Below are positions 1 to 34,173 of a stretch of 64,000 nt of DNA, piece after piece (within the stretch, counting starts at the first letter, position 1; the number at the start of each line of letters is the position of its first letter). The stretch spans positions 1 through 64,000 of the forward strand of contig JAHDOA010000018.1 of NCBI GenBank assembly GCA_018435055.1, written 5' to 3'. The DNA is from Pelotomaculum sp. GTDB lineage: Bacteria; Bacillota; Desulfotomaculia; Desulfotomaculales; Pelotomaculaceae. Under the pieces are notes generated by a model. The model did not search any database, was not told the origin of the DNA, and saw only the letters and a list, made by a program, of their open reading frames with translations. A program made the translations under genes and the position numbers.

Positions 1-526
1 CGACGTGGCGCCGCTGCTGAGAAGCGACCGGACCTTCCTGCCGGCCCGGTTTGTGGCCGAGGGCCTGGGCTATCAGGTGGACTGGGACGAAGCGACACAG
101 ACCGTGGTTTGCTGGCCGGCCGGGCAGGAGAAGCCGGACGTGAGCGCGGCGGTGGAGTACCTGACCAGCGGGCAGCTGCCTGTGCAGGGCAATACGGTGA
201 ACGGTTATGTCGTGCCGGCGAAAACGGAACTACGTCTTGCTGACCCTAATATGGTTAAAGGTGACAAACATATTGTTTTCAATATTGACATTAAAAAAGG
301 CAACCTGGAGCAGAAGTACGCGGACGCGGAAAGCATACTCCTGCAGACCCTTGACGCTGATACGACCGCCAAGGCTATAGAATTTGCAAAGGTAACGCAA
401 GAAGCTTTACTTTCTGGTAAACCGTGGGATATTAAAGATTTCAGATCCCCCAATGGAATGACTGTAAGAGTAGGTGCAGGATGGGGTGGAACATCAATAC
501 AATTCAGCGTCTGGCAAGCAAACTAA
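1..526 (+). CDS. Copper amine oxidase N-terminal-like domain protein, 3' part
   Basis: The reading frame is open at the window edge, so the true start lies upstream. The first visible residues (DVAPLL, then RTFLPARFVAEGLGY and VDWDEATQTVV) match the repeated stalk-like module called the copper amine oxidase N-terminal domain, common in exported proteins of Peptococcaceae. That domain name does not imply amine oxidase activity, and no catalytic domain is visible. The following ~110 residues resemble nothing I recognise. The stop at 524-526 lies 26 bases before the next probable start. A related domain recurs at 2436-2897. Function unknown; surface or cell-wall role inferred. Confidence 0.75.
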   Translation, partial: DVAPLLRSDRTFLPARFVAEGLGYQVDWDEATQTVVCWPAGQEKPDVSAAVEYLTSGQLPVQGNTVNGYVVPAKTELRLADPNMVKGDKHIVFNIDIKKGNLEQKYADAESILLQTLDADTTAKAIEFAKVTQEALLSGKPWDIKDFRSPNGMTVRVGAGWGGTSIQFSVWQAN

Positions 527-552
527 ACAACTTAAAAGGGAGAATGATATTT

Positions 553-2416
553 ATGCTTAAAAGATTGTCCGTAATAGCGGCGGTCTTTTTTCTTTTGACC
601 GTCGCTTTTTTAACACCGGCCTTAGCTGGTACACCTTATGACTCTGCAAAAGCTATAAATGATGCTAAGGAAAATTACGGTTATAGTGCTACTAATGAAA
701 GTGGCGATCCTATCAACTACGTCACCAGTACCGGCCTGAGCAACCTAACCGACGGAAAAGGCTACAGCTACGGATTTTTGACCTACGGCCAGCCCCACGG
801 AGATCAAAAAAGCGGCGAATCCCGCTATATCGGCTACACTTATTATGGCGAAGATTACACAAATATGGACTTTCCCGCAGACAAAAACGCCGGCGGCGCC
901 GACTTCACAAGCAGAAACTGGATAATAGAGCCGTGGAACGAACCCGGTCTTACAGATATTCAGGCAACTGACCCAATGTTTACCATGTTCAATCCCGACG
1001 GCCTTCCCGGTGACGGCGACCCCGCGTACCACACCGCGATACTTGCCGGAATTATGGCCTACGGCGCAACAAACGCCAACAACGGTTATACTATCACCGA
1101 GGCCAGTAACCCGGCATTTTGGAATGAAATCGAAAAATATGTTCATATACTATCCCCCGCTACAGCCTATAGCTTTGGGATAGGTAGAATGTGGCACAAA
1201 GACGCAAGCGGAGGACTCTGGTATGTAACCGTTCCGATCATGCCGAACGCCCTGCTGCCCGAACTCGGCAACCTCAAAGCCGTGTCCATCGACCTCGGCG
1301 TACCGCCTGGCCAACTAGCCGAACCCGATACTAAATACATGGCCACAGTGGTATTTAAAAACGAATTCGATAAAAAACTCACAGGCGTCCCGGTAGCCGT
1401 ACTACACGGCGAATATAAAGCTACTTTAAAAGACGAAAAAGGCCAGACGCTGCCCTGGGTATCAATTAACGGCAAAGAAGTACAAGTAGCCGATTTTGAG
1501 GCGGGAGAAAGCAGAAAATTCACTTGTTCTGGCACCCGTTCAACCAGGCCAAAGACGGTTTGACCGGTATAATCAACCGTGACGAAATCGGCAAAGTACA
1601 CCAGGAAACAACCTATGCGGATAACATTGTAAGCGCGGAAACCGTAGTAGAGTTGCAGGACCTGAGCGTGCAGATATTAGATTACCCTCAAGAAGCCTAC
1701 GCCGGCAATCCTGTAACGGTTAAAGCAAAAGTATTCAACAGCACCGGCAAGATGGTGGTTACCAAACTGGTCTGGAAGGTTAACGGCAGCGTAATCAAGG
1801 AAATACCCAACTTCGACATCATCTCCGAGTACGAATCCGCTGTGACCTTCAACATGCCCAACTCGACAGCGAATGTGACCGTTGAAGTAAACCCCGACCA
1901 TAACGCGCCGCCTGATGAGGCGAGCTGGGAAAACAATATTGACAGCTGCTCAATTAGCCGCCTGGCCGAACCCAACGCTCCCTTTGAAGACAGTTGTTTG
2001 GAAGTAGGTATTCAAGCGCCGGCCTCAGTGGATTACTGGAAAAACATCGACTTTACAGTAGTGGTAAAAACATTTGTACCACCGCCGCCGCCAGGTGGAT
2101 ATCACTACACCGTACCCGTTAGCCTCGATGTAAATACTTCAGGCGGTTATGTTACAACACTTTATAACACTGTAGACGGTTCCATGAATAATGTCGAAAA
2201 CACCATCAGCGAACACAGAAGCTATGCGGCTCCTTCGGTTGGATGGTCTACAGTGACTTTAAGTTTTACCCAGCCCGGTTTAGGGATAAAAGGCCAGGAA
2301 CACCATTTTACTATAGAAGCTATGGCAAGAATGGAAGATAAGACCGCAGGGACGTTAAAAAGGTTTTAGTCGCGGAAGTACCGTTAAGACCGGTCACGAC
2401 ACGATTGACTTACTAA
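553..2416 (+). pseudogene. Exported CARDB-like protein broken by two frameshifts
   Basis: AGGGAG at 537-542 precedes ATG 553 by ten bases. The product opens with a signal peptide (MLKRLSV, hydrophobic stretch, then ALAGT). The first frame stops at 1563, but homologous-looking sequence (HPFNQAKDGLTGIINRD) continues in another frame from about 1527 to 2369. From about 2346 a third frame reads DVKKVLVAEVPLRP and stops at 2414-2416. Both shifts are in the direction expected from loss of one base, and neither sits on an obvious slippery heptamer. The middle part (VELQDLSVQIL, VKAKVFNSTG, SWENNID) resembles CARDB adhesion-type domains. The N-terminal ~300 residues are not recognised. A pseudogene is likeliest; sequencing errors are the alternative. 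Confidence 0.65.
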
Positions 2417-2435
2417 AAAAGGGAGGAATATCAAA

Positions 2436-2897
2436 ATGAAAAAAATAATTGTTATATTTGCTTTGTTTGGGGCGTTTTTGATTTCATGTACAAATGCTAC
2501 CGCTAACAATAATGTTGCCGAGTTCGATGGTACCACATTAAATATAAGCGATAGAAATTTATCAGTGGAAGATATGTATCTCAGGGTGTTTTTCTCTGAT
2601 AGCAGCATCAGCGAATCTCTCATGTTGCCGGTTAGGGACGTCGCCGAGGGCCTGGGGTACCAGGTGGACTGGGACTCAATCAAAAGAGAAGCGACAATTC
2701 AAACACCCGATAAAACGATAATTATTCCCGTTGATGGAAGCAGCATAACAAGTAGTCCAGGGCAGATCGTTTATCACTTCAGGGACGGCGAGCCGCGTCC
2801 TGAAGTAAAAGCAGATAGACTCTATGCGCCGGTTAGGCTGGTGAAAGAATATCTAGATTTTACGATTTTGATCCGGGGTGATAATAATGGCATTTAA
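2436..2897 (+). CDS. Small exported protein with copper amine oxidase N-like domain
   Basis: GGGAGG precedes ATG 2436. The 153-residue product starts with MKKIIVIFALFGAFLISC, a signal sequence whose final LISC could be a lipobox, so it may be a lipoprotein. Residues ~65-90 (MLPVRDVAEGLGYQVDWDS) and ~127-145 (DRLYAPVRLVKEYLDF) are the two halves of a copper amine oxidase N-like domain. It ends at RGDNNGI, where family members usually continue with another short strand, so the C-terminus may be clipped. The last 11 bases overlap the next gene. It shares the domain with the partial gene at 1-526. Function unknown. Confidence 0.7.
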   Translation: MKKIIVIFALFGAFLISCTNATANNNVAEFDGTTLNISDRNLSVEDMYLRVFFSDSSISESLMLPVRDVAEGLGYQVDWDSIKREATIQTPDKTIIIPVDGSSITSSPGQIVYHFRDGEPRPEVKADRLYAPVRLVKEYLDFTILIRGDNNGI

Positions 2898-3096
2898 GCC
2901 TGGCGTAGAAGGGTTGCGCCTGTACACCGTGCCGGAAGTTGCCGGCATGCTTCGCGTGAAAAAGGGATATGTATACGAGCTCATTTACACCGGTCGCTTG
3001 CAAGCGATAAAGTTAAGTGAGCGGCGGATCAGAATAACTAACGATCAACTCATGCAATATTTGGAGCAGGAAACACAGGGGCGGGCAGAGAACTAA
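2887..3096 (+). CDS. Excisionase-family HTH DNA-binding protein
   Basis: A 69-residue protein starting at ATG 2887, six bases after GGGGTG; a GTG at 2878 is the alternative start. The core (LYTVPEVAGMLRVKKGYVYELI, then GRLQAIKLSERRIRI) is the helix-turn-helix plus wing of the MerR-like excisionase family (HTH_17), and the tail (QLMQYLEQ) is the usual ending. It sits 29 bases upstream of the tyrosine recombinase on the same strand, the classic xis-int arrangement. It probably acts as a directionality factor or a small repressor of the element. The family call is solid; the xis role is inferred from position. Confidence 0.8.
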   Translation: MAFKPGVEGLRLYTVPEVAGMLRVKKGYVYELIYTGRLQAIKLSERRIRITNDQLMQYLEQETQGRAEN

Positions 3097-3125
3097 CTCT
3101 CTGCCTGGCTTCCTTTTAGGGAGGC

Positions 3126-4214
3126 ATGATAGCAAAAATGGCGCAAGTAAGAAGGAGGGGACCGAACAATTATACTATCATAGTTTACCTGGGACGCAAA
3201 GAAAACGGTAAAAAAGATTGCTATAGCGAAACATTTTACGGCGAGCGCCGCGAAGCCAATATGAGGGCGGCAGAACTGGAGATCCAGTTTAAGAGGCGCA
3301 GAGGGCCAAAAAAGGCGGCAATGACGTTGGGAGACTACCTCGACAAATGGCTGGATGGAATACAGGACAATGTAACACCCCGCACCCACGAAAAATACTC
3401 CTGGCACGTCAAGCGGTTAAAGCCATTAGTTGGAGATTTGCAGCTGAGCAAACTAGATGTTTTAGATGTAAAAGAGCGTCTAAAACCTCTGAATAGTGAC
3501 GTGGCGCCGCGCACCAGGAAAGACCTATACTGCACACTAAGATCGGCAATGCGCCAGGCTGTGGATTGGGGCATCCTGTTAATCAATCCATTAGCCGGAT
3601 TAAAGACACCAAGAATGCAAAAAAAAGAAATGAATGTGCTCAACCTCGCTGAGGTCGAACAATTTTTGGAGGCCGCCAAAGCATATAAGCACTATCCCGT
3701 GATTAGGGTGTTGGCGGTAACCGGTCTGCGCCTGGGCGAGGTCCTTGGTCTGAAGTGGGGCGATATAAACTTTGATAAATGCACCTTAACTGTTAAGCGT
3801 GCCGCCGACTGCCGCCGCCGTATCCTGAAGGAAGAAACTAAAACGGAGAGCAGCAGAAGGACTATCGAATTAGACCAGGAGACGCTATCCGTCCTTGCCG
3901 CGCATAGGGAAACTCAAAAGAAAGAAAAAGCCGTGCCTTTTCGCAAACGTGACGGCCTGGTGTTCCATTCACAGGACGGTAGACCGCTGCGCGAAGGGGC
4001 CATACGTATTACAAAAAACAGGATTCTCAAAAAGTCGGGGCTTAGGCATATCAGACTGCACGATCTCAGGCATTCGGTTGCCACGATCAAGCTTAACGCC
4101 GGTGAATCTTTAATTTCTGTCGCCGGTCTGCTTGGCCACGCTAACCCTTCGACGACAGTTAAAACTTATGCCCATCCCGTCAGAGGGGGAAGGGGCCTGA
4201 CCCCGAAAACATAA
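3126..4214 (+). CDS. int: Tyrosine recombinase / phage-type integrase
   Basis: A 362-residue site-specific recombinase, SD TAGGGAGG before ATG 3126. Order: an N-terminal arm-binding AP2-like region (~1-60), a SAM-like core-binding domain (~65-165), and a catalytic domain (~172-350). Catalytic residues are visible as Arg202 (TGLRLGE), His312 and Arg315 (LHDLRHS), His338 (LLGHANP) and nucleophile Tyr348 (KTYAHP). The normal C-terminal tail is missing: after YAHP the frame runs into a GC-rich palindromic stretch giving VRGGRGLTPKT and a stop. The next 150 bases contain short direct repeats and a tRNA 3'-end copy, so the gene adjoins its attachment site. Activity is plausible, but the altered tail could affect it. 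Confidence 0.93.
   Translation: MIAKMAQVRRRGPNNYTIIVYLGRKENGKKDCYSETFYGERREANMRAAELEIQFKRRRGPKKAAMTLGDYLDKWLDGIQDNVTPRTHEKYSWHVKRLKPLVGDLQLSKLDVLDVKERLKPLNSDVAPRTRKDLYCTLRSAMRQAVDWGILLINPLAGLKTPRMQKKEMNVLNLAEVEQFLEAAKAYKHYPVIRVLAVTGLRLGEVLGLKWGDINFDKCTLTVKRAADCRRRILKEETKTESSRRTIELDQETLSVLAAHRETQKKEKAVPFRKRDGLVFHSQDGRPLREGAIRITKNRILKKSGLRHIRLHDLRHSVATIKLNAGESLISVAGLLGHANPSTTVKTYAHPVRGGRGLTPKT
4183..4204. repeat. GC-rich REP-like palindrome at integrase 3' end
   Basis: The stretch reads AGGGGGAAGGGGCCTGACCCC; GGGG and CCCC can pair around CCTGA. It coincides with the point where the integrase sequence stops resembling its family. Similar GGGGTCAGGCCCC motifs occur as dispersed palindromes in some bacterial genomes, but I cannot confirm the copy number here. 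Inference only. Confidence 0.35.
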
Positions 4215-4263
4215 GGCTTTTTGGATAGTTGTTTTTCTGCGGAAGGCACAGTATAATTACATT

Positions 4264-4283
4264 GTCGGACAAAAAGTCGGACA
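4264..4283. repeat. Short direct repeat between integrase and att site
   Basis: GTCGGACA occurs at 4264-4271 and again at 4276-4283, twelve bases apart. It lies between the integrase stop and the tRNA-like attachment site. Such repeats are typical of arm-type integrase binding sites; that role is inferred. Confidence 0.4.
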
Positions 4284-4332
4284 GAAATTAATAAATGCCG
4301 ATATATCAGGGTTAATTCAGGTGGTTGTTACG

Positions 4333-4355
4333 TTCGAGTCGTGTCGCTCCGACCA
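4333..4355 (+). other. Probable attachment site: copy of a tRNA 3' end
   Basis: The bases run TTCGAGTC, GTGTCGCTCCGACCA: a T-loop, the 3' half of the T-stem, an acceptor 3' strand (CGCTCCG), discriminator A and CCA. Sequence to the left does not fold into the rest of a tRNA, so this is a fragment, not a gene. The implied acceptor 5' strand CGGAGCG, starting with C, fits a tRNA-Pro, but it is not the tRNA-Pro at 59451-59528, whose acceptor differs. Integrases of this type often recombine into tRNA 3' ends and leave such a duplicate at one boundary. The element would then extend leftward past the window edge. Confidence 0.7.
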
Positions 4356-4357
4356 GA

Positions 4358-4388
4358 AATAACTCGGGTACCCGCTACCCGTGTTATT
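4358..4388 (+). terminator. Hairpin directly after tRNA 3'-end copy
   Basis: AATAAC-T-CGGGTA pairs with TACCCG-T-GTTATT around the loop CCCGC, about 12 base pairs with one T-T mismatch. It starts two bases after the CCA of the tRNA fragment, where the terminator of a tRNA gene would be. There is no long T-run. Confidence 0.6.
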
Positions 4389-4409: not shown

Positions 4410-4913
4410 ATGGATAGTAAGTTGGAAAAGTTTATTGAAACAGCAAAAGAACTGGGCGCCCACGATGCGAAATTTATTCACCCGGGCACAATTAAAACAG
4501 CGCCCTGGATCGTCATGAAATGCAGATATGGCTGCGGCAGTTATAACACGCTCCTTTGCTGCCCGCCACATACGCCAACCTTCAAAGAGACGCAGGAGGT
4601 AATTGACTGTTATAAAACAGCTCTGCTGATTCATTGTAAATCATGGGATATTGTAACGCCGATTGTGGCCAAACTGGAAAAGGAAATCCTTCTGTCAGGC
4701 TATTACAAGGTCTTTGGTTTTGGTTGCGGGCCATGTAAATCATGTGAGCCGTGTAACATGGTAAAATGCGTTAAACCACAGGAAGCAAGGCCTTCCATGG
4801 AAGCCTGCGGCATTGAGGTATTTGAAACTGCAAGAATAAACGGGTTTCCAATTAGTTTTACCCCGGATTTAAATGCTGAACAAAATTGTTATGGTTTATT
4901 GTTAATAGAATAA
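4410..4913 (+). CDS. DUF2284 cysteine-rich predicted metal-binding protein
   Basis: A 167-residue protein; ATG 4410 follows a TTGGGGATT stretch. It matches DUF2284 in its conserved cysteines: CRYGCGSY and LCCPPHTPT at ~35-55, then a dense group (GCGPCKSCEPC, VKC) at ~106-122 and EACGIEVFET near 135. The family is predicted to bind metal, possibly Fe-S, from this pattern, and no reaction is established. It lies just outside the proposed attachment site, so it is probably resident chromosome. A hairpin follows at 4956. It stands about 200 bases before the small ferredoxin on the same strand; a shared redox role would be a guess. Confidence 0.85.
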   Translation: MDSKLEKFIETAKELGAHDAKFIHPGTIKTAPWIVMKCRYGCGSYNTLLCCPPHTPTFKETQEVIDCYKTALLIHCKSWDIVTPIVAKLEKEILLSGYYKVFGFGCGPCKSCEPCNMVKCVKPQEARPSMEACGIEVFETARINGFPISFTPDLNAEQNCYGLLLIE

Positions 4914-8217: not shown

Positions 8218-9000
8218 TTACATCTGGCGCGCATATTCCACAGCGTTGTTAAATATTTCCCGGCAACATAACGAAATATCGTCCGGCAACCTGCGCCAGT
8301 TAGGGTGCTGAGTTTTGCCCACACAGCGTTCGGGGTGGGGCATCATACCCATGATGCGGCCCGTGCTGTCACATATTCCCGCTATAGCGTTAAGAGAGCC
8401 GTTCGGGTTGGCGGGATATGATAGAGTGGGGCTGCCATCGTTTCCAGCATAGCGGAATACAACCAGGCCCTGGTCCTCAATATCCTGCAAAGTATCCGGG
8501 GTAGTGTAGAATTTACCCCCACCGTTGGCAACCTGCACGCTTATAACCCTTCCTGCCATACCGCGTGTAAAAACACAGCGGGTGCTTTCCACCAAAAGGT
8601 TAACCCAGCGGCATTCGAAATGGTTGCTGCTATTGACCATCAGAGTCGTTTTGATTTCACCAAGCCTGCGGTACGGCAGCAGTCCGGTCCTGGCCAACAC
8701 CTGAAAACCGTTGCAGATGCCGATAATCAGCTTGCCTTTGTTAACAAACTCCATTAACTGCTCTTTTAAAAAAGAAATCAGCTCCACGGCCAGGATTTTG
8801 CCTGAATGGACATCGTCACCATAGGAAAAACCGCCGGGCAGGGCAAGGATTTGGTAGCCGGAAAGCTTTTTTTCGCCGCGTCTCAGCTGGTTAATATGCA
8901 CCATGGCGCATTCGGCCCCGGCGTTTTCAAAGGCATGGTAGGTTTCCTCATCACAGTTAATACCGTCGGCCCTTAAAACACAAACGCCCGGTTTTTTCAT
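8218..9000 (-). CDS. purQ: Phosphoribosylformylglycinamidine synthase, glutaminase subunit
   Basis: Supplies ammonia from glutamine for step four of purine synthesis. A 260-residue class I amidotransferase: oxyanion region ALPGGFSYGDDV (~53-64), nucleophile Cys96 in GICNGFQVL, and His/Glu in MMPHPERCVG near residues 219-228. Its ATG overlaps the purL stop (TGATG), so the two are translationally coupled in the order purL-purQ. At 260 residues it is longer than B. subtilis PurQ (~227) and close to variants that pair with PurS-fused PurL. Confidence 0.95.
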   Translation of the reverse strand: MKKPGVCVLRADGINCDEETYHAFENAGAECAMVHINQLRRGEKKLSGYQILALPGGFSYGDDVHSGKILAVELISFLKEQLMEFVNKGKLIIGICNGFQVLARTGLLPYRRLGEIKTTLMVNSSNHFECRWVNLLVESTRCVFTRGMAGRVISVQVANGGGKFYTTPDTLQDIEDQGLVVFRYAGNDGSPTLSYPANPNGSLNAIAGICDSTGRIMGMMPHPERCVGKTQHPNWRRLPDDISLCCREIFNNAVEYARQM

Positions 9001-11834
9001 CAGCGGAAAACCTCCTTCATTGGCTGCTGCCAGGCTGTTTTTAATTCACCGAGTTCCAGAGTGAATAATTCCTCTTCCGATTGCTTTACTGTTATACTTT
9101 TATCTGTTGAGGTTACACCAATTATTCTACATGGAATATCGCCAAAAATTGCCGCCGGATTCAGGCCGGCAGAAACCTCAGCCAGGAAGCAGCCCGCGGT
9201 TTCGTTGAACAGGAAATTTACCGCGTCCTCATCTTCGGGGATATTTATAACCGCGCCTGTGTCGCCGCCAAAACACATTTCCGCCAGAGCGACAGCCAGG
9301 CCGCCTTCGCTGATATCATGGCAGGCCTGCAGTTTGCCGGAGCCGACAGCGCGATAAAGCGTTTTTAAAACTCGCATTAAGTTGTCTGGATTTATCCTGG
9401 GCAGGTTACTGCCCAGGGCGCCATGGATCTGGCAGTAGACTGAACCAGCCATTTCTTTTGTGTCGCGGTAGCCAAAAAGGACAATATGGCTGCCCGTTGC
9501 TTTAAAATCTGCCGAAACAGTTTTTGCGGCGTCTGGAATGCGGCCGAATGCAGAAACACAAAGGACGGGCGGGATTCTGATTACCGTACCGTCTTTGCCC
9601 CGGTATGTGCTGGAAAGACTGTCTTTACCGGATATGAAAGGCATACCGGTAGCCCTGACGAAATCAACACAGGCGTCAACGGCCATGTCCAGGGCGCCCA
9701 GTTGTTCTTCATCGGGGAAAGGCCAGATAAAGTTGTCGATTAACGTTATCTCAGCTGGATTGGCGCCGCAGGCTACTGCATTGGAGACCGCCTCCGCCGC
9801 CGCCCAGATACTGCCGTAATAAGGGTCAATCAGGTTTAAAACAGGGTTGAGTCCGTGTGCAATTACCATGCCATAAGGCATGCCAAGTATTGGCGTGATG
9901 ATTGCCGCATCGTTGGGCCCATCGCCGTGCACGCCGGTGAACGGCGGCAGGGCGCAGGTTCCCTGGACCCCATGGTCGTACATCCTGACAATGGGGTCTT
10001 TGGAGCATATATTTAAATGCCCCATGACCTTTTTATACAGGCCGGGCCAGTCAGCGGGCGTTTCTATTTGATGCGCGTCCAGAGAGGGTCTTTTCCAGGC
10101 GGCGTTCAGTACCCGCTGGGGCAGGCCGCCATGTAGAAAACTCATATCCAGATTCATTACTTCGCGTCCCTCGTAGGTGGCTGAGAAATGTCCGTCACTG
10201 GTAAATTCACCAAGCACAGTGATTTCAACATTATTATCGCGGCAGATTTCAAACAGGCGCTCAACGTGTTCAGGCGCTACGGACAGGACCATTCTTTCCT
10301 GGCTCTCGGAAAGCAGTATTTCCCAGGGTGAAAGTCCCGGGTATTTTAAAGGAGCCAGATCAAGAGCTATGCGCGCGCCGGTTTCCGCGCCCATTTCACC
10401 TACCGCTGAAGCAAATCCCCCTGCGCCGCAATCGGTAATAGCCCGTATCAAACCTTCGTCCCTGGCGGTTAATATGGCGTCAAACATGCGCTTTTCTTCA
10501 ATCGGGTGGCCAATCTGCACGGCGCTGGCATTAACGTCTATGGTACGGTCGGTCATTTCGCCGCTGGAAAAGGTGGCGCCGTGGATGCCGTCCCGGCCGG
10601 TCCGGCCGCCCATGGCTATAACCCGGTCTCCCGGCTTCGGTTGGCCTTTTTGGCAGGCGGCGGCCGGGAGAATACCGTACGATCCCGCGATAACTGTGGG
10701 TTTGGCGCGGAAATCACGGTGGAAATGCAGGGACCCGTTATTTGTGGGTATGCCGATGCGGTTCCCGTAATCTCTAATACCCGCTATTGCACGCCTTAAA
10801 AGATAGTGCGGGTGCAGACAGCCGGGCGGTATTTCTTCAGCGGGCAAGTCGGGGGGCGCAAAACAAAACATATCTGTTGAAGCGATAACTTTGGCGCCGA
10901 GTCCGGTACCCACAATATCGCGGAAAACGCCGCCGCTGCCAGTCATAGCCCCGCCGTACGGTTCAATCGCCGATGGGGAGTTATGGGTTTCAACCTTACC
11001 GCAAATAGCCATACCGTCATAAAAATCCATTACACCCGAGTTGTCAACGAAAGCTGATAGCACTAGCGGGTGCTTGCTTTCCTCTGTAGCGTCACGCAGC
11101 CTCTTCAGCAGGGGCTTTTTTTCTTTCCCGTCTACTATCAGTCTGGCTTTAAAAGTTTTGTGGCCACAGTGCTCGGACCAGGTTTGGGCGATAATTTCAA
11201 TTTCACAATCGGTGGGGTCCCTACCGAGAGAACTAAAATAATTCTGGATGACTTTCATTTCTTCTAAATTTAAGAAAAGCTTGTCCCGGCTTAACTCGAT
11301 AAGCTGTTGATCATTCATGCCGCGGATGGGCACAATCTCCGTTCGACCGGGGTTGCCCTGTATGACAAGTGTCTCAGGTTTTTCTTTTACCACATATTCC
11401 ACTGTAGCGTTAACCAGCAGGTTGTTAACGATGCGTTCGATATCAGCCCCGGTAATTTTTTCTCCGTAAAAACCATACTGCCAGGATGAGTCAGCCGCGA
11501 TTAAGCCGTCTACTCCCAGGTCAGAGGCTGATTTCATTAGTGAGGCCGCCTCGGGATTCATAACCCCGGGCCTGTAGGCCACCTCGATGACGAAAGCGGC
11601 GTCGTTAATTACTGCGCCGTTTACCCGGAAGGACTGAAATATTTCTTCAGCCAGCAATCTTACAGCAAGAAAATAGGCAGCGTCTTCATCAATGCCTTCA
11701 AAGCGAAAAACCTTTGCTGTCCTGACTTTTTCTACACTGTTGATACCCAGGGCTTGACGGATCTCGTACAGGACCTCGTCTCCTTTGTTGTCCGGTATGC
11801 CGTCTTTGGTCATCACCAGCACTTCCTGGATCAT
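9000..11834 (-). CDS. purL: FGAM synthase large subunit with fused PurS-like N-terminus
   Basis: Converts FGAR to FGAM with ATP and PurQ-derived ammonia. AAAGGAGG lies seven bases before ATG 11834, giving 944 residues. Residues ~1-75 (VLVMTKDGIPDNKGDEVL, VEKVRTAKVFRFEG) are PurS-like. Residues ~80-155 (FVIEVAYRPGVMNPEAASL) look like a second PurS-like copy, matching the PurS dimer that precedes the catalytic domains. The PurL core follows: EIIAQTWSEHCGHKTF near 220, the metal/ATP region KVETHNSPSAIEPYGGA near 295, and a second AIRS-type half to the end. This is longer than small PurL (~740) and shorter than the single-chain enzyme (~1300) because PurQ is separate. Confidence 0.94.
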   Translation of the reverse strand: MIQEVLVMTKDGIPDNKGDEVLYEIRQALGINSVEKVRTAKVFRFEGIDEDAAYFLAVRLLAEEIFQSFRVNGAVINDAAFVIEVAYRPGVMNPEAASLMKSASDLGVDGLIAADSSWQYGFYGEKITGADIERIVNNLLVNATVEYVVKEKPETLVIQGNPGRTEIVPIRGMNDQQLIELSRDKLFLNLEEMKVIQNYFSSLGRDPTDCEIEIIAQTWSEHCGHKTFKARLIVDGKEKKPLLKRLRDATEESKHPLVLSAFVDNSGVMDFYDGMAICGKVETHNSPSAIEPYGGAMTGSGGVFRDIVGTGLGAKVIASTDMFCFAPPDLPAEEIPPGCLHPHYLLRRAIAGIRDYGNRIGIPTNNGSLHFHRDFRAKPTVIAGSYGILPAAACQKGQPKPGDRVIAMGGRTGRDGIHGATFSSGEMTDRTIDVNASAVQIGHPIEEKRMFDAILTARDEGLIRAITDCGAGGFASAVGEMGAETGARIALDLAPLKYPGLSPWEILLSESQERMVLSVAPEHVERLFEICRDNNVEITVLGEFTSDGHFSATYEGREVMNLDMSFLHGGLPQRVLNAAWKRPSLDAHQIETPADWPGLYKKVMGHLNICSKDPIVRMYDHGVQGTCALPPFTGVHGDGPNDAAIITPILGMPYGMVIAHGLNPVLNLIDPYYGSIWAAAEAVSNAVACGANPAEITLIDNFIWPFPDEEQLGALDMAVDACVDFVRATGMPFISGKDSLSSTYRGKDGTVIRIPPVLCVSAFGRIPDAAKTVSADFKATGSHIVLFGYRDTKEMAGSVYCQIHGALGSNLPRINPDNLMRVLKTLYRAVGSGKLQACHDISEGGLAVALAEMCFGGDTGAVINIPEDEDAVNFLFNETAGCFLAEVSAGLNPAAIFGDIPCRIIGVTSTDKSITVKQSEEELFTLELGELKTAWQQPMKEVFR

Positions 11835-11904
11835 ATCTTTCCTCCTTTCCAATAGTTGCGGCAGGGTACACATTTACATCAGATCAAATAGATTAGACAG
11901 TGAT

Positions 11905-11932
11905 ATTATATTCCCTGCCTCAATAATGTCAA
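11905..11932 (-). promoter_or_regulatory. Promoter for purL-purQ
   Basis: On the minus strand TTGACA (11932-11927) and TATAAT (11910-11905) are separated by 16 bases, about 70 bases before purL. The remainder of the 320-base divergent gap to selA holds a weak hairpin (AACCGC/GCGGTT at 11946-11965) and the selA promoter. Confidence 0.8.
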
Positions 11933-12082
11933 TAAAATCAAAAGAAACCGCTTTTATTTGCGGTTATGCGTTTTAAGAAGATTTTTTCCGCCTTACCCTC
12001 TTCTATTATATATAGCGCGAGGACCTTTGCCTAGTTGTGTTTGTAAAAATAAAATGGCTAAAAGGCCAAATTCCTTAAATGC

Positions 12083-12111
12083 TTGCTTTTGCTGGTTTAC
12101 TGCCATATAAT
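12083..12111 (+). promoter_or_regulatory. Promoter for selA-selB
   Basis: TTGCTT (12083-12088), a 17-base spacer and TATAAT (12106-12111), 47 bases before the selA start. Confidence 0.7.
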
Positions 12112-12157
12112 TTAAAAAAGTTAAGGGAATAATACTATTTTGCTTACTGGAGGCTGT

Positions 12158-13585
12158 ATGAGCGAGAATTACATGAGAATTAGCCTCAGACTGCTGCCGT
12201 CTGTTGACGAGGTGCTAAGGGATGCCAGGGTAACAAAAATGCTGGAAGACCACCCGCGTATTGTAGTCCTTGAGGCTGCCCGGGCCGTATTGGCTGATGC
12301 GAGGAAGGGAATATTATCAGGCGCCGTAAAGACGCGGCAGGATATAAAAAAAGAAGAATATCTGGAAATGGTAGTTGAAAAAACAGCAGCAGCGGTAAAA
12401 TGCTCAATACGGCCATACCTGCGCCGGGTAATTAACGCTACCGGGGTGATACTGCACACAAACCTCGGACGCGCCATTCTTAGCGAACGGGCCAGAGAAG
12501 CCGTTAGCATTGTGGCCTCAAATTATTCCAATCTCGAACTCGACCTGAAAATAGGGCGCAGGGGATCAAGATACGCCGCGCTGGAAAACTTGCTTACCTC
12601 GCTGACCGGAGCGGAAGACGCCCTTGTTGTTAATAACAATGCGGCGGCGGTTTTGCTGGCATTGAGCACTGCCGCCAGGGGAAGGGAAGTTATCGTTTCG
12701 CGGGGACAACTGGTTGAAATCGGCGGTTCTTTCCGGATACCCGAAGTAATGGCCCAGAGCGGCGCCAAACTGGTCGAAGTAGGCGCTACCAACAAAACTC
12801 ACCCGGAGGATTACAGGAAGGCTATTGGCGGCGATACTGCCATGCTGCTCCATGTGCATACCAGCAATTACCGCATTATTGGTTTTACCAGGGAAACCAC
12901 TGTCAGTGAACTGGTTGAGATCGGCAGGGAATATAACTTGCCGGTAATGTCTGACCTGGGCAGCGGTTCTTTGCTTGATTTGAGCCGTTTCGGCCTGCCG
13001 CAGGAACCAACTGTGCAGGAAGTGCTGAAAGCCGGGCCGGACATAGTTACTTTCAGCGGTGATAAACTCCTGGGGGGCCCGCAGGCAGGAATTATCCTCG
13101 GCAGGCGCCTTTACATAGAAAAGATGAAAAAGAACCCTCTAACCAGGGCGGTGCGGATTGATAAGATGACTGTGGCAGCCCTGGAGGCGACCCTGAGGGA
13201 ATACCAGGATGAAGAGAAAGCAATCAGGGAAATCCCCACCCTGCAAATGCTCACCGTTAACCAGGAGATTCTTGAAAAAAGAGCCTATTGCCTGGAGAAC
13301 CTTTTGCAGAGTGTCTTAGATAAAACCCTAGCTCAGTTGACGGTTGAAAAGGGTGTGTCGGCGGTCGGCGGCGGGGCCATGCCGACCGCGGAACTGCTTA
13401 CGGCAGTGGTGGCTGTGAGCCCCCATAACATAAGCGCCGGTGAACTGCAGGCCGCGCTGCGGCGCGGGGAGCCCGCTGTTATGGGCAGGGTACAGGAAGA
13501 CAGGCTAATTCTGGATCTCAGAACCATCAACGATTCGGAGTTACAGCCTCTGGCGGAGGCTGTGGCGCAAGCTTTAAAACAATGA
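12158..13585 (+). CDS. selA: L-seryl-tRNA(Sec) selenium transferase
   Basis: A PLP enzyme that converts seryl-tRNA(Sec) to selenocysteyl-tRNA(Sec) using selenophosphate. 475 residues, as usual for SelA. N-terminal [11 protein letters not shown] is the family opening. [18 protein letters not shown] (~90-107) and the PLP lysine Lys303 in [13 protein letters not shown] are diagnostic. GGAGG sits four bases before ATG 12158; an in-frame TTG at 12140 lacks a site. selB follows 15 bases after the stop, so they form an operon. Its tRNA substrate is encoded at 34076-34173. selD is not in this window. Confidence 0.97.
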
Positions 13586-13600
13586 CTGGAAGTGGATAAT

Positions 13601-15526
13601 TTGAAGCACCTGATTATCGGCACCGCGGGACACGTGGACCATGGAAAAACCGCGCTGGTAAAGGTTATGACCGGGGTGGACACAGACCGCCTGAAGGAAG
13701 AAAAAGAACGCGGCATTTCTATTGAACTTGGCTTTACCTGCCTTAACCTTCCAGGCGGTCGCAGGGCCGGTATAGTCGATGTGCCGGGACACGAACGGTT
13801 TATCAAAAACATGCTGGCGGGAGCCGGCGGATTCGACCTGGTGCTGCTGGTGATAGCCGCTGATGAAGGTGTCATGCCCCAGACCAGGGAACATATGGAC
13901 ATTATTCAGCTCCTACAGGTCAAAAAAGGGATAGTGGTATTAACAAAGTGCGATCTGGTGGATGATGAATGGCTTGACCTGGTTAAAGAGGACGTGAAAG
14001 ATTTTTTGCAGGGGACTGTGCTGGAGGACGCTCCTGTGGCGCTGGTCTCAGCAGTTACTAAAAAAGGAATTCCTGAATTATTGAAATTGATCGGCCAGGC
14101 GGTGGAGAAAGTCGTTCCCAAGGCCGGTCAGGGCCAGCCCAGGCTGCCTGTGGACAGGGTTTTTACTATAACTGGTTTCGGTACTGTGGTTACGGGGACA
14201 CTGCTGTCCGGTGTTATAAAAGTTGGGGAGATGGTTGAAGTCCAACCCGAAGGTTTGTCCGCCAGGGTCCGCACAGTGCAGGTGCATGGTGAAAGGGTTG
14301 AAGCCGCAGAAGCAGGCCAGAGGGTGGCGGTCAACCTGGCAGGGCTTGAGGCCGAACAAATTGATCGTGGCAGCATTGTGGCCGGACCCGGGATGATCAA
14401 ACCGTCACATCGCCTGGATGTGCGCCTGCAATTGCTGAAAAGCGCAGTCAGGCCCCTGAAGAACAGGACAAGGGTGCGTTTTTATTTGGGTACCAGAGAG
14501 ACACTGGGGCGAGTAATACTGCTGGACAGGGAGGAATTGGCGCCCGGTTCCGTAGTTTACGCCCAGGTCGTGCTGGAGGATAGGACGGTACCGGTAAAGG
14601 GTGACCGCTTTGTAATCAGATCATATTCGCCGATGCGGACAATTGGCGGCGGCGTCGTCATAGACCCGGCGCCCAAACGCAAGCACAAGCGCTTTCGCGA
14701 GGAGGTGCTGGAGGCCCTGTCCACCAGGGAAAAAGGCAATCCTGAAGAAATAGTAAAACTGTATCTGGACGCTAACAGCAATGTGCATTTGCCGGCGGAG
14801 GTAGCAGCTGGTACAGGCCTGCAGGAAAAAGAGGTGATGGAAGCGGCCGCTGCTTTGGCTGAGAAAAAAGAGGTTAAGCTAATCAGCGGTGACGGCAAAC
14901 AATACCCTGTGTCGACAGCTGTTTACACCCGCTGGCTGGAGGACATAAAAACGCTGGCGATTTCTTACCACCGGGAGTTTCCGTTAAGGGACGGCTATCC
15001 GAAGGAAGAAATCCGCTCACGGAAATTTCCGCAACTTAGCGCAAAAGTTTTTCAACTGGTGTTATTGGAAATGGAAAAGGAAGGCGCTCTCGAGGTACTA
15101 CCGAAGGTAGTGGCGGTGAAAGGTTTTGCAACCGGCCCCGATCAGCGGCTAAAAGAGCAGATTCAGCAGATCAGCCGGATTATGGGTGAATCGGCTTTTC
15201 TGCCTCCATCATGGGCTGAAATCAGCAATACTATAGGCTTTAGTGAAACGATGGGAACAGAACTGCTGCAATATCTATTAAGGACGGGGGAAATGGTCAA
15301 AGTGGCCGAAGACCTTTACTTTCAAAGAGACGTTATGCGGGAAGCGATCAGTAAGGTCACCTCTTACCTCAGTAAGCACGGGGAAATTACAGTTGGTGAA
15401 CTAAGGGACCTGCTTAAAACCTCCCGCAAATATGCCCTGCCGCTGCTGGAGTATTTTGACCGGGAAAAGCTGACCAGGCGGATCGGCGACAAACGCCTGC
15501 CGGGCAAAGCATTGAATAACCAGTGA
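13601..15526 (+). CDS. selB: Selenocysteine-specific elongation factor
   Basis: A GTPase that carries selenocysteyl-tRNA to UGA codons marked by a SECIS hairpin. The G1 loop AGHVDHGKT is near residues 8-16, switch [14 protein letters not shown] near 60 and the TKCDL base-recognition motif near 115. EF-Tu-like beta-barrels follow to ~340, then the C-terminal winged helices that read SECIS (up to [20 protein letters not shown]). GGAAGTGG precedes TTG 13601 by about six bases; GTG 13592 (three residues longer) is the alternative. 641 residues, a normal length. A terminator closes the selAB operon. Confidence 0.97.
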
Positions 15527-34075: not shown

Positions 34076-34173
34076 TGGCGGGAGTGCGTGGGAATCGAAC
34101 CCACCCAGGACAGGAGCGCTGCCCCGCGACTGGTTTTGAAGACCAGGAGCGCCACCAGGCGCCATCCACCCCC
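34076..34173 (-). tRNA. selC: tRNA-Sec (anticodon TCA)
   Basis: A 98-base tRNA read 5' to 3' on the minus strand from 34173. Anticodon stem-loop CTGGT-CTTCAAA-ACCAG gives TCA, decoding UGA. The variable arm is long (CGCGGGGCAGCGCTCCTGTCCTGG region), the T-loop is GGGTTCGATTCCC and the 3' end CCCGCCA is encoded. An extended acceptor plus long variable arm and UCA anticodon identify selenocysteine tRNA. Pairing at the eighth acceptor position appears to be G-G, unusual. Works with selA and selB at 12.2-15.5 kb. Confidence 0.96.

Follow-up and report, generated by a model that had tools for sequence, protein, structure and literature searches.

An integrative element at the 3' end of a tRNA-Pro(GGG) gene of Pelotomaculum sp. 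and its sigK-splitting relative in the same genome

ICEs, IMEs and genomic islands of the ICEBs1 type, which integrate in tRNA genes, use a tyrosine integrase together with Xis. The element described here resembles them in carrying int and xis at one end, in an att core taken from a tRNA 3' end, in the tRNA rebuilt at attL and in its predicted arm-type repeats. It differs from them in its target, tRNA-Pro(GGG), in a conserved exported CuAO/Athe_2463 pair, and in having no relaxase or T4SS gene in its assembled part. Taken alone, it is an ordinary tRNA-integrated island. Skin elements of Bacillus and Clostridia carry a SpoIVCA-type recombinase, and a sister element in the present genome is like them in splitting sigK and in encoding a SpoIVCA-like large serine recombinase; its backbone, however, is of the T4CP/replication-initiator type and not that of a phage, and the first element is itself no skin element.

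Experiments have shown that SPbeta, skin and ICEBs1 can exchange their SSR units, and the same study reported that databases yielded no close ICE relatives differing in this unit (Suzuki et al., 2019; PMC6957869). The parallel with our data is that recombination modules swap between backbones, but the earlier swaps were constructed or occurred between prophages, whereas here they would have taken place between natural IME-like elements of one genome. A precedent for a non-phage element that splits a sporulation gene is gin, the gerE-intervening element of B. cereus (PMC5595907). It differs from the sigK element, which has a large serine recombinase, in its position in gerE and in its three serine recombinases.

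Integration module and attachment sites

The window, the whole stretch of 64,000 nucleotides that was analysed, is C49:1-64000 of a 70-contig assembly. Its start is a contig end, where the left side of the element is cut. The features are as follows.

2..526, + strand: exported Cu_amine_oxidN1-domain protein, cargo, 3' part only, truncated by the contig start (Pfam PF07833, E 3e-11)
481..2369, + strand: exported Athe_2463-domain protein, cargo, split into ORFs 481-1563 and 1524-2369 in the ORF list
2436..2897, + strand: small exported Cu_amine_oxidN1-domain protein, cargo (PF07833, E 3.1e-13; copy on C68)
2878..3096, + strand: xis, excisionase-like helix-turn-helix protein (PF12728, TIGR01764, PHROG 66/2907)
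3126..4214, + strand: int, tyrosine recombinase (PF00589 and PF14659; Phage_integrase E 1.5e-26)
4264..4283, + strand: predicted Int arm-type sites, GTCGGACA twice (4264 and 4276, period 12)
4330..4358, + strand: attR core, 29 bp copied from the 3' end of tRNA-Pro(GGG), with T arm, acceptor, CCA and three further bases, 100% match to C40:55798-55826
4358..4388, + strand: terminator-like hairpin native to the tRNA-Pro gene, stranded outside the element (fold -14 kcal/mol, z -4.3)
4410..4913, + strand: DUF2284 gene, chromosomal flank, the first gene outside the element (PF10050, E 2.8e-37)

An integration and excision module of the IME/ICE kind (int, xis and att) is thus present, and the parts predicted by the first-pass annotation were recovered. 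The excisionase-like gene matched HTH_17 (E 1.5e-12) and TIGR01764 'excise' (E 1.8e-11), and a related gene precedes a related int in six other loci (L103, L104, L106, L107, L108 and L113). Alignment of the recombinase, said to have all five catalytic residues, with six related proteins shows that R, K, HxxR, H and the nucleophilic Tyr are retained. The protein has only a short tail beyond the Tyr, preceded by a run of G, so that a frameshift may affect its last residues. A genome-contig search with Int found distant homologues alone (23-31% identity). The direct repeat was also present where it had been described, and its two copies are probably Int arm-type sites; the motif TCGGACA has no + strand copies in the 64-kb window other than those at 4265 and 4277.

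The tRNA 3' end of 23 bases noted by the first-pass annotation lies at 4333-4355, and its identity with an intact tRNA extends to 29 bp (E about 1e-6). One further copy of this sequence exists in the genome, on contig C40, where it forms the 3' end of an intact tRNA-Pro(GGG) at C40:55746-55823; beyond this tRNA, element DNA continues for 5.4 kb until the contig stops. The donor is indeed a different tRNA-Pro from that of the window, which is tRNA-Pro(TGG), but the acceptor strand implied by the first-pass annotation, CGGAGCG, was wrong: the actual 5' strand is CGGGGCG, which makes a G-U pair. Downstream of the intact tRNA, C40 carries a strong terminator (-22 kcal/mol), a TCGGACA pair with a period of 11 (the sole + strand copies in the C40 stretch), and the gene of a phage/plasmid-type replication initiator (HTH_36, PHROG 270); the contig terminates within a second tyrosine recombinase. 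Plasmid searches with the initiator gave weak matches alone. A tRNA-SeC gene (TCA) at 34076-34173 of the window points to selenoprotein synthesis in the organism.

Comparison with a congener, G004, revealed a locus that is empty at exactly this place (G004:C116): a methyltransferase gene, tRNA-Pro(GGG), a hairpin and the DUF2284 gene, 85% identical and directly after the tRNA, follow one another without interruption. To the left, G004 runs collinear with C40 for about 12 kb at 81-88% identity, as far as base 13827 of L008; to the right, it matches the window from base 4330 onwards for 0.7 kb at 84%. When attL, attR and the uninterrupted locus are aligned three ways, the break falls exactly at the 26-29 bp core. 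Since a single contiguous stretch of G004 aligns with both, C40 and the window border the same insertion from its two sides, C40 holding attL and the window attR. The hairpin, first described as resembling a tRNA terminator, is stable and has its counterpart in the empty site.

With a recombinase beside a direct repeat of a tRNA 3' end, an intact tRNA at the opposite end and an empty site in a relative, we conclude, with a probability of about 0.94, that positions 1-4358 of the window are the attR end of an integrative element of the IME/ICE/genomic-island type inserted in the 3' end of tRNA-Pro(GGG). The intact tRNA on C40 and the empty site in G004 bear out the tRNA-integrated boundary proposed by the first-pass annotation. 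In the mechanism that we envisage, the circular element carried a core of up to 29 bp derived from the tRNA, and Int recombined it with its identical counterpart in the tRNA gene. This left an intact tRNA with an element-supplied terminator at attL and a copy of the 3' end at attR, the native terminator being pushed outside the element and replaced by the one that the element brings. Excision would be the reverse reaction by Int and Xis, with the TCGGACA repeats on either side of the core acting as arm-type sites; the excised element would probably replicate and may be mobilised. The copy in the window may itself be immobile, given its frameshifted cargo and the short tail of Int.

Other accounts of this boundary carry little weight. 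It is improbable that the element is a prophage, integrated in the tRNA gene, that has become defective by loss of its structural genes: Int and the initiator do match the PHROG families phrog_1 and phrog_270, and integrases of the same broad type occur in 2820 phage records, but the best among the phage matches listed are at most about 32% identical to the window Int. Moreover, a PHROG scan of ten proteins from the assembled parts of the element returned integration and replication families only, with no structural gene among them, and the presence of T4CP genes in the sigK sister (described below) and in L104, and of T4SS genes beside the related int in L103 (genome G025), argues against a prophage. 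In the assembled 9.7 kb of the element, whose middle is unassembled, no relaxase, coupling protein or T4SS gene was seen, and a bona fide relaxase was not found among the T4CP and Replic_Relax genes of the sigK sister or in the T4SS loci of G025 either.

Slightly less improbable, though still unlikely, is the scar of an old element, in which int, xis and the core persist while C40 and C49 have ceased to be the ends of one insert. In its favour, contig breaks fall within repeats, the cargo has frameshifts, and this genome does contain att scars that lack an element, as at C64:7566-7592, where a tRNA-Arg core lies with a terminator and repeats. Against this, C40 bears a matching attL accompanied by a terminator, a pair of repeats and the initiator gene, and the empty locus of G004 joins precisely the flanks of C40 and the window. 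Genes for integrases can also coincide with tRNA-like words, so that the 23-mer and the repeats might owe their position to chance, or be a tRNA-terminator sequence unrelated to int; an exact match of 29 bp, the collinearity of the empty site and a layout that recurs in at least six related loci leave this reading virtually no room.

Cargo genes and relatives in other genomes

To the left of xis lie the cargo genes of the insertion in tRNA-Pro(GGG), described by the first-pass annotation as not usual phage genes. This description stands: no phage structural gene was found in the ~10 kb assembled, and the pair of exported Cu_amine_oxidN1- and Athe_2463-domain proteins recurs among the relatives of the element. 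The proteins look exported, as judged by their hydrophobic N-termini; a role in cell contact would be a guess. The Athe_2463 gene (NF047340 match at 757-1230) has two frameshifts relative to an intact copy of 457 amino acids on contig C68, one of them near 2355, and is decaying; its protein is 69% identical in amino acids to the copy in the sigK element. Among the 30 matches to Athe_2463, at least 13 have a related initiator, int or serine recombinase no more than ~15 kb away; the number was counted by hand from coordinates and is a minimum, as the contigs are broken. GC content was dropped as a marker of foreign DNA, the element and its flank being without contrast (48.5% and 48.5%).

Related integrases end at tRNA-Pro 3' ends in G025, G033 and G047, and at tRNA-Arg 3' ends in G025, G030 and G046, G025 carrying two elements with such integrases. 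One of the loci, L104 (G025, of another family), has beside it the ferredoxin and speD genes that also come after the site in the window, indicating that the site is reused across families; as the empty locus of G004 indicates, it can also be vacant. In G047 the core is flanked by two pairs of similar repeats, GCAGACAA, next to a broken int, an arrangement that corresponds to the layout predicted for attP. For the tRNA-Pro element the predicted attP runs from int through repeats, the 29-bp core, the terminator and a second set of repeats to the initiator gene. A small tRNA-Arg element of ~6.4 kb (L107, G030, 8965-15420) has, besides int and xis, genes for a Vsr-like endonuclease, for a cytosine methylase and for the reverse transcriptase of a group II intron.

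Sister elements and probable exchange of recombination modules

Several elements of the genome have a common backbone, in which a replication initiator lies by att and the exported CuAO/Athe_2463 pair lies ahead of the recombinase. The four initiators of the genome form one clade (support 100/100), within which the sigK copy pairs with the tRNA-Arg copy (89/93), and their elements use different recombinases. Contigs C40 and C28 end at the identical base inside the second tyrosine recombinase, and C49 and C42 begin in one and the same cargo gene, their first 166 bases being 98% identical. The repeats of the elements are thus collapsed in the assembly, which ruled out recovery of the middle of the element via related loci.

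One sister element splits sigK, with the C-terminal half of the gene on C38 (L101, 11514-11873) and the N-terminal half on C42 (L010, 4335-4751). When the flanks are joined at GAAAT, one intact sigK frame results. The attP predicted for this element is CTAGTCTTTGTTATTGA-CATTGAAATC-TCAATAACAAAGACTAG, with 17-bp perfect inverted repeats. On the C38 side it carries an initiator with 79% amino acid identity to that of the window element (on C40), a coupling protein with a modest TrwB/TraG match, an XerC-like recombinase and Replic_Relax proteins, and on the C42 side the exported CuAO/Athe_2463 pair and the large SpoIVCA-like serine recombinase. With its split sigK gene, intact on joining, and its serine recombinase, the copy on C38 and C42 is built as a skin element. 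The layout is not an artefact of assembly, since a comparable element, contiguous over ~14.8 kb, lies between the sigK halves in a genome from another family of the order (L160, G034:C13, 1394-16886); it encodes an initiator-like protein, a coupling protein, Replic_Relax, the CuAO/Athe_2463 pair, a Fic-like protein and a serine recombinase.

A second sister element (L102, C28, 9107-11577) adjoins a tRNA-Arg(CCG) gene (C28:31106-31180), which is followed by GGACAA repeats. Its initiator shows 77% amino acid identity, and it has the same second recombinase as C40. The right end was not found, and a 27-bp copy of the core on C64 has the layout of an attL or of a scar. At this place (L119, C64, 7420-7770) a C-terminal fragment of sigK runs straight into the tRNA-Arg 3' end, after which come a terminator-like stretch, several GGACAA/CCGACAA repeats and tRNA-Val. 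A degenerate copy on C68 contains cargo, xis and the first codons of int, followed by parts of the initiator and coupling-protein genes; this direct joining of xis and truncated int to Rep and T4CP is the order expected of the circular form, with internal deletions.

We consider it probable that the window element belongs to a family of mobilisable, IME-like backbones that naturally swaps its whole recombination module. The tRNA-Pro element and the broken copy on C68 carry tyrosine Int and Xis, and the sigK element carries a SpoIVCA-type serine recombinase and would be excised developmentally as a skin element. The grouping of the initiators in one clade despite differing recombinases, along with the near-identical cargo start of C49 and C42, fits exchange between co-resident elements. 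Either the recombination modules were swapped, or the cargo was transferred through homologous recombination, two orders of events that the data leave unseparated.

The window element would then be of interest as one half of a natural experiment, its backbone being common to an element that splits sigK by means of an unrelated recombinase. The genome would offer a concrete natural case of the module exchange that Suzuki et al. (2019) showed in the laboratory. If the reading of swapped modules is true, the skin element is a domesticated element of the IME type and not a phage remnant, which suggests a route from a conjugation-related element to a developmentally excised one. Titles and abstracts of the open-access papers listed gave no earlier description of sigK elements on a mobilisable backbone.

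Elements in G016 and G020 have the same backbone and a serine recombinase (82%), but were rejected as skin elements because the N-terminal part of sigK was not found beside them. A minimal sigK element of ~4 kb, consisting of a serine recombinase and two or three further genes, is present in G006 (L159, G006:C43, 6527-11304).
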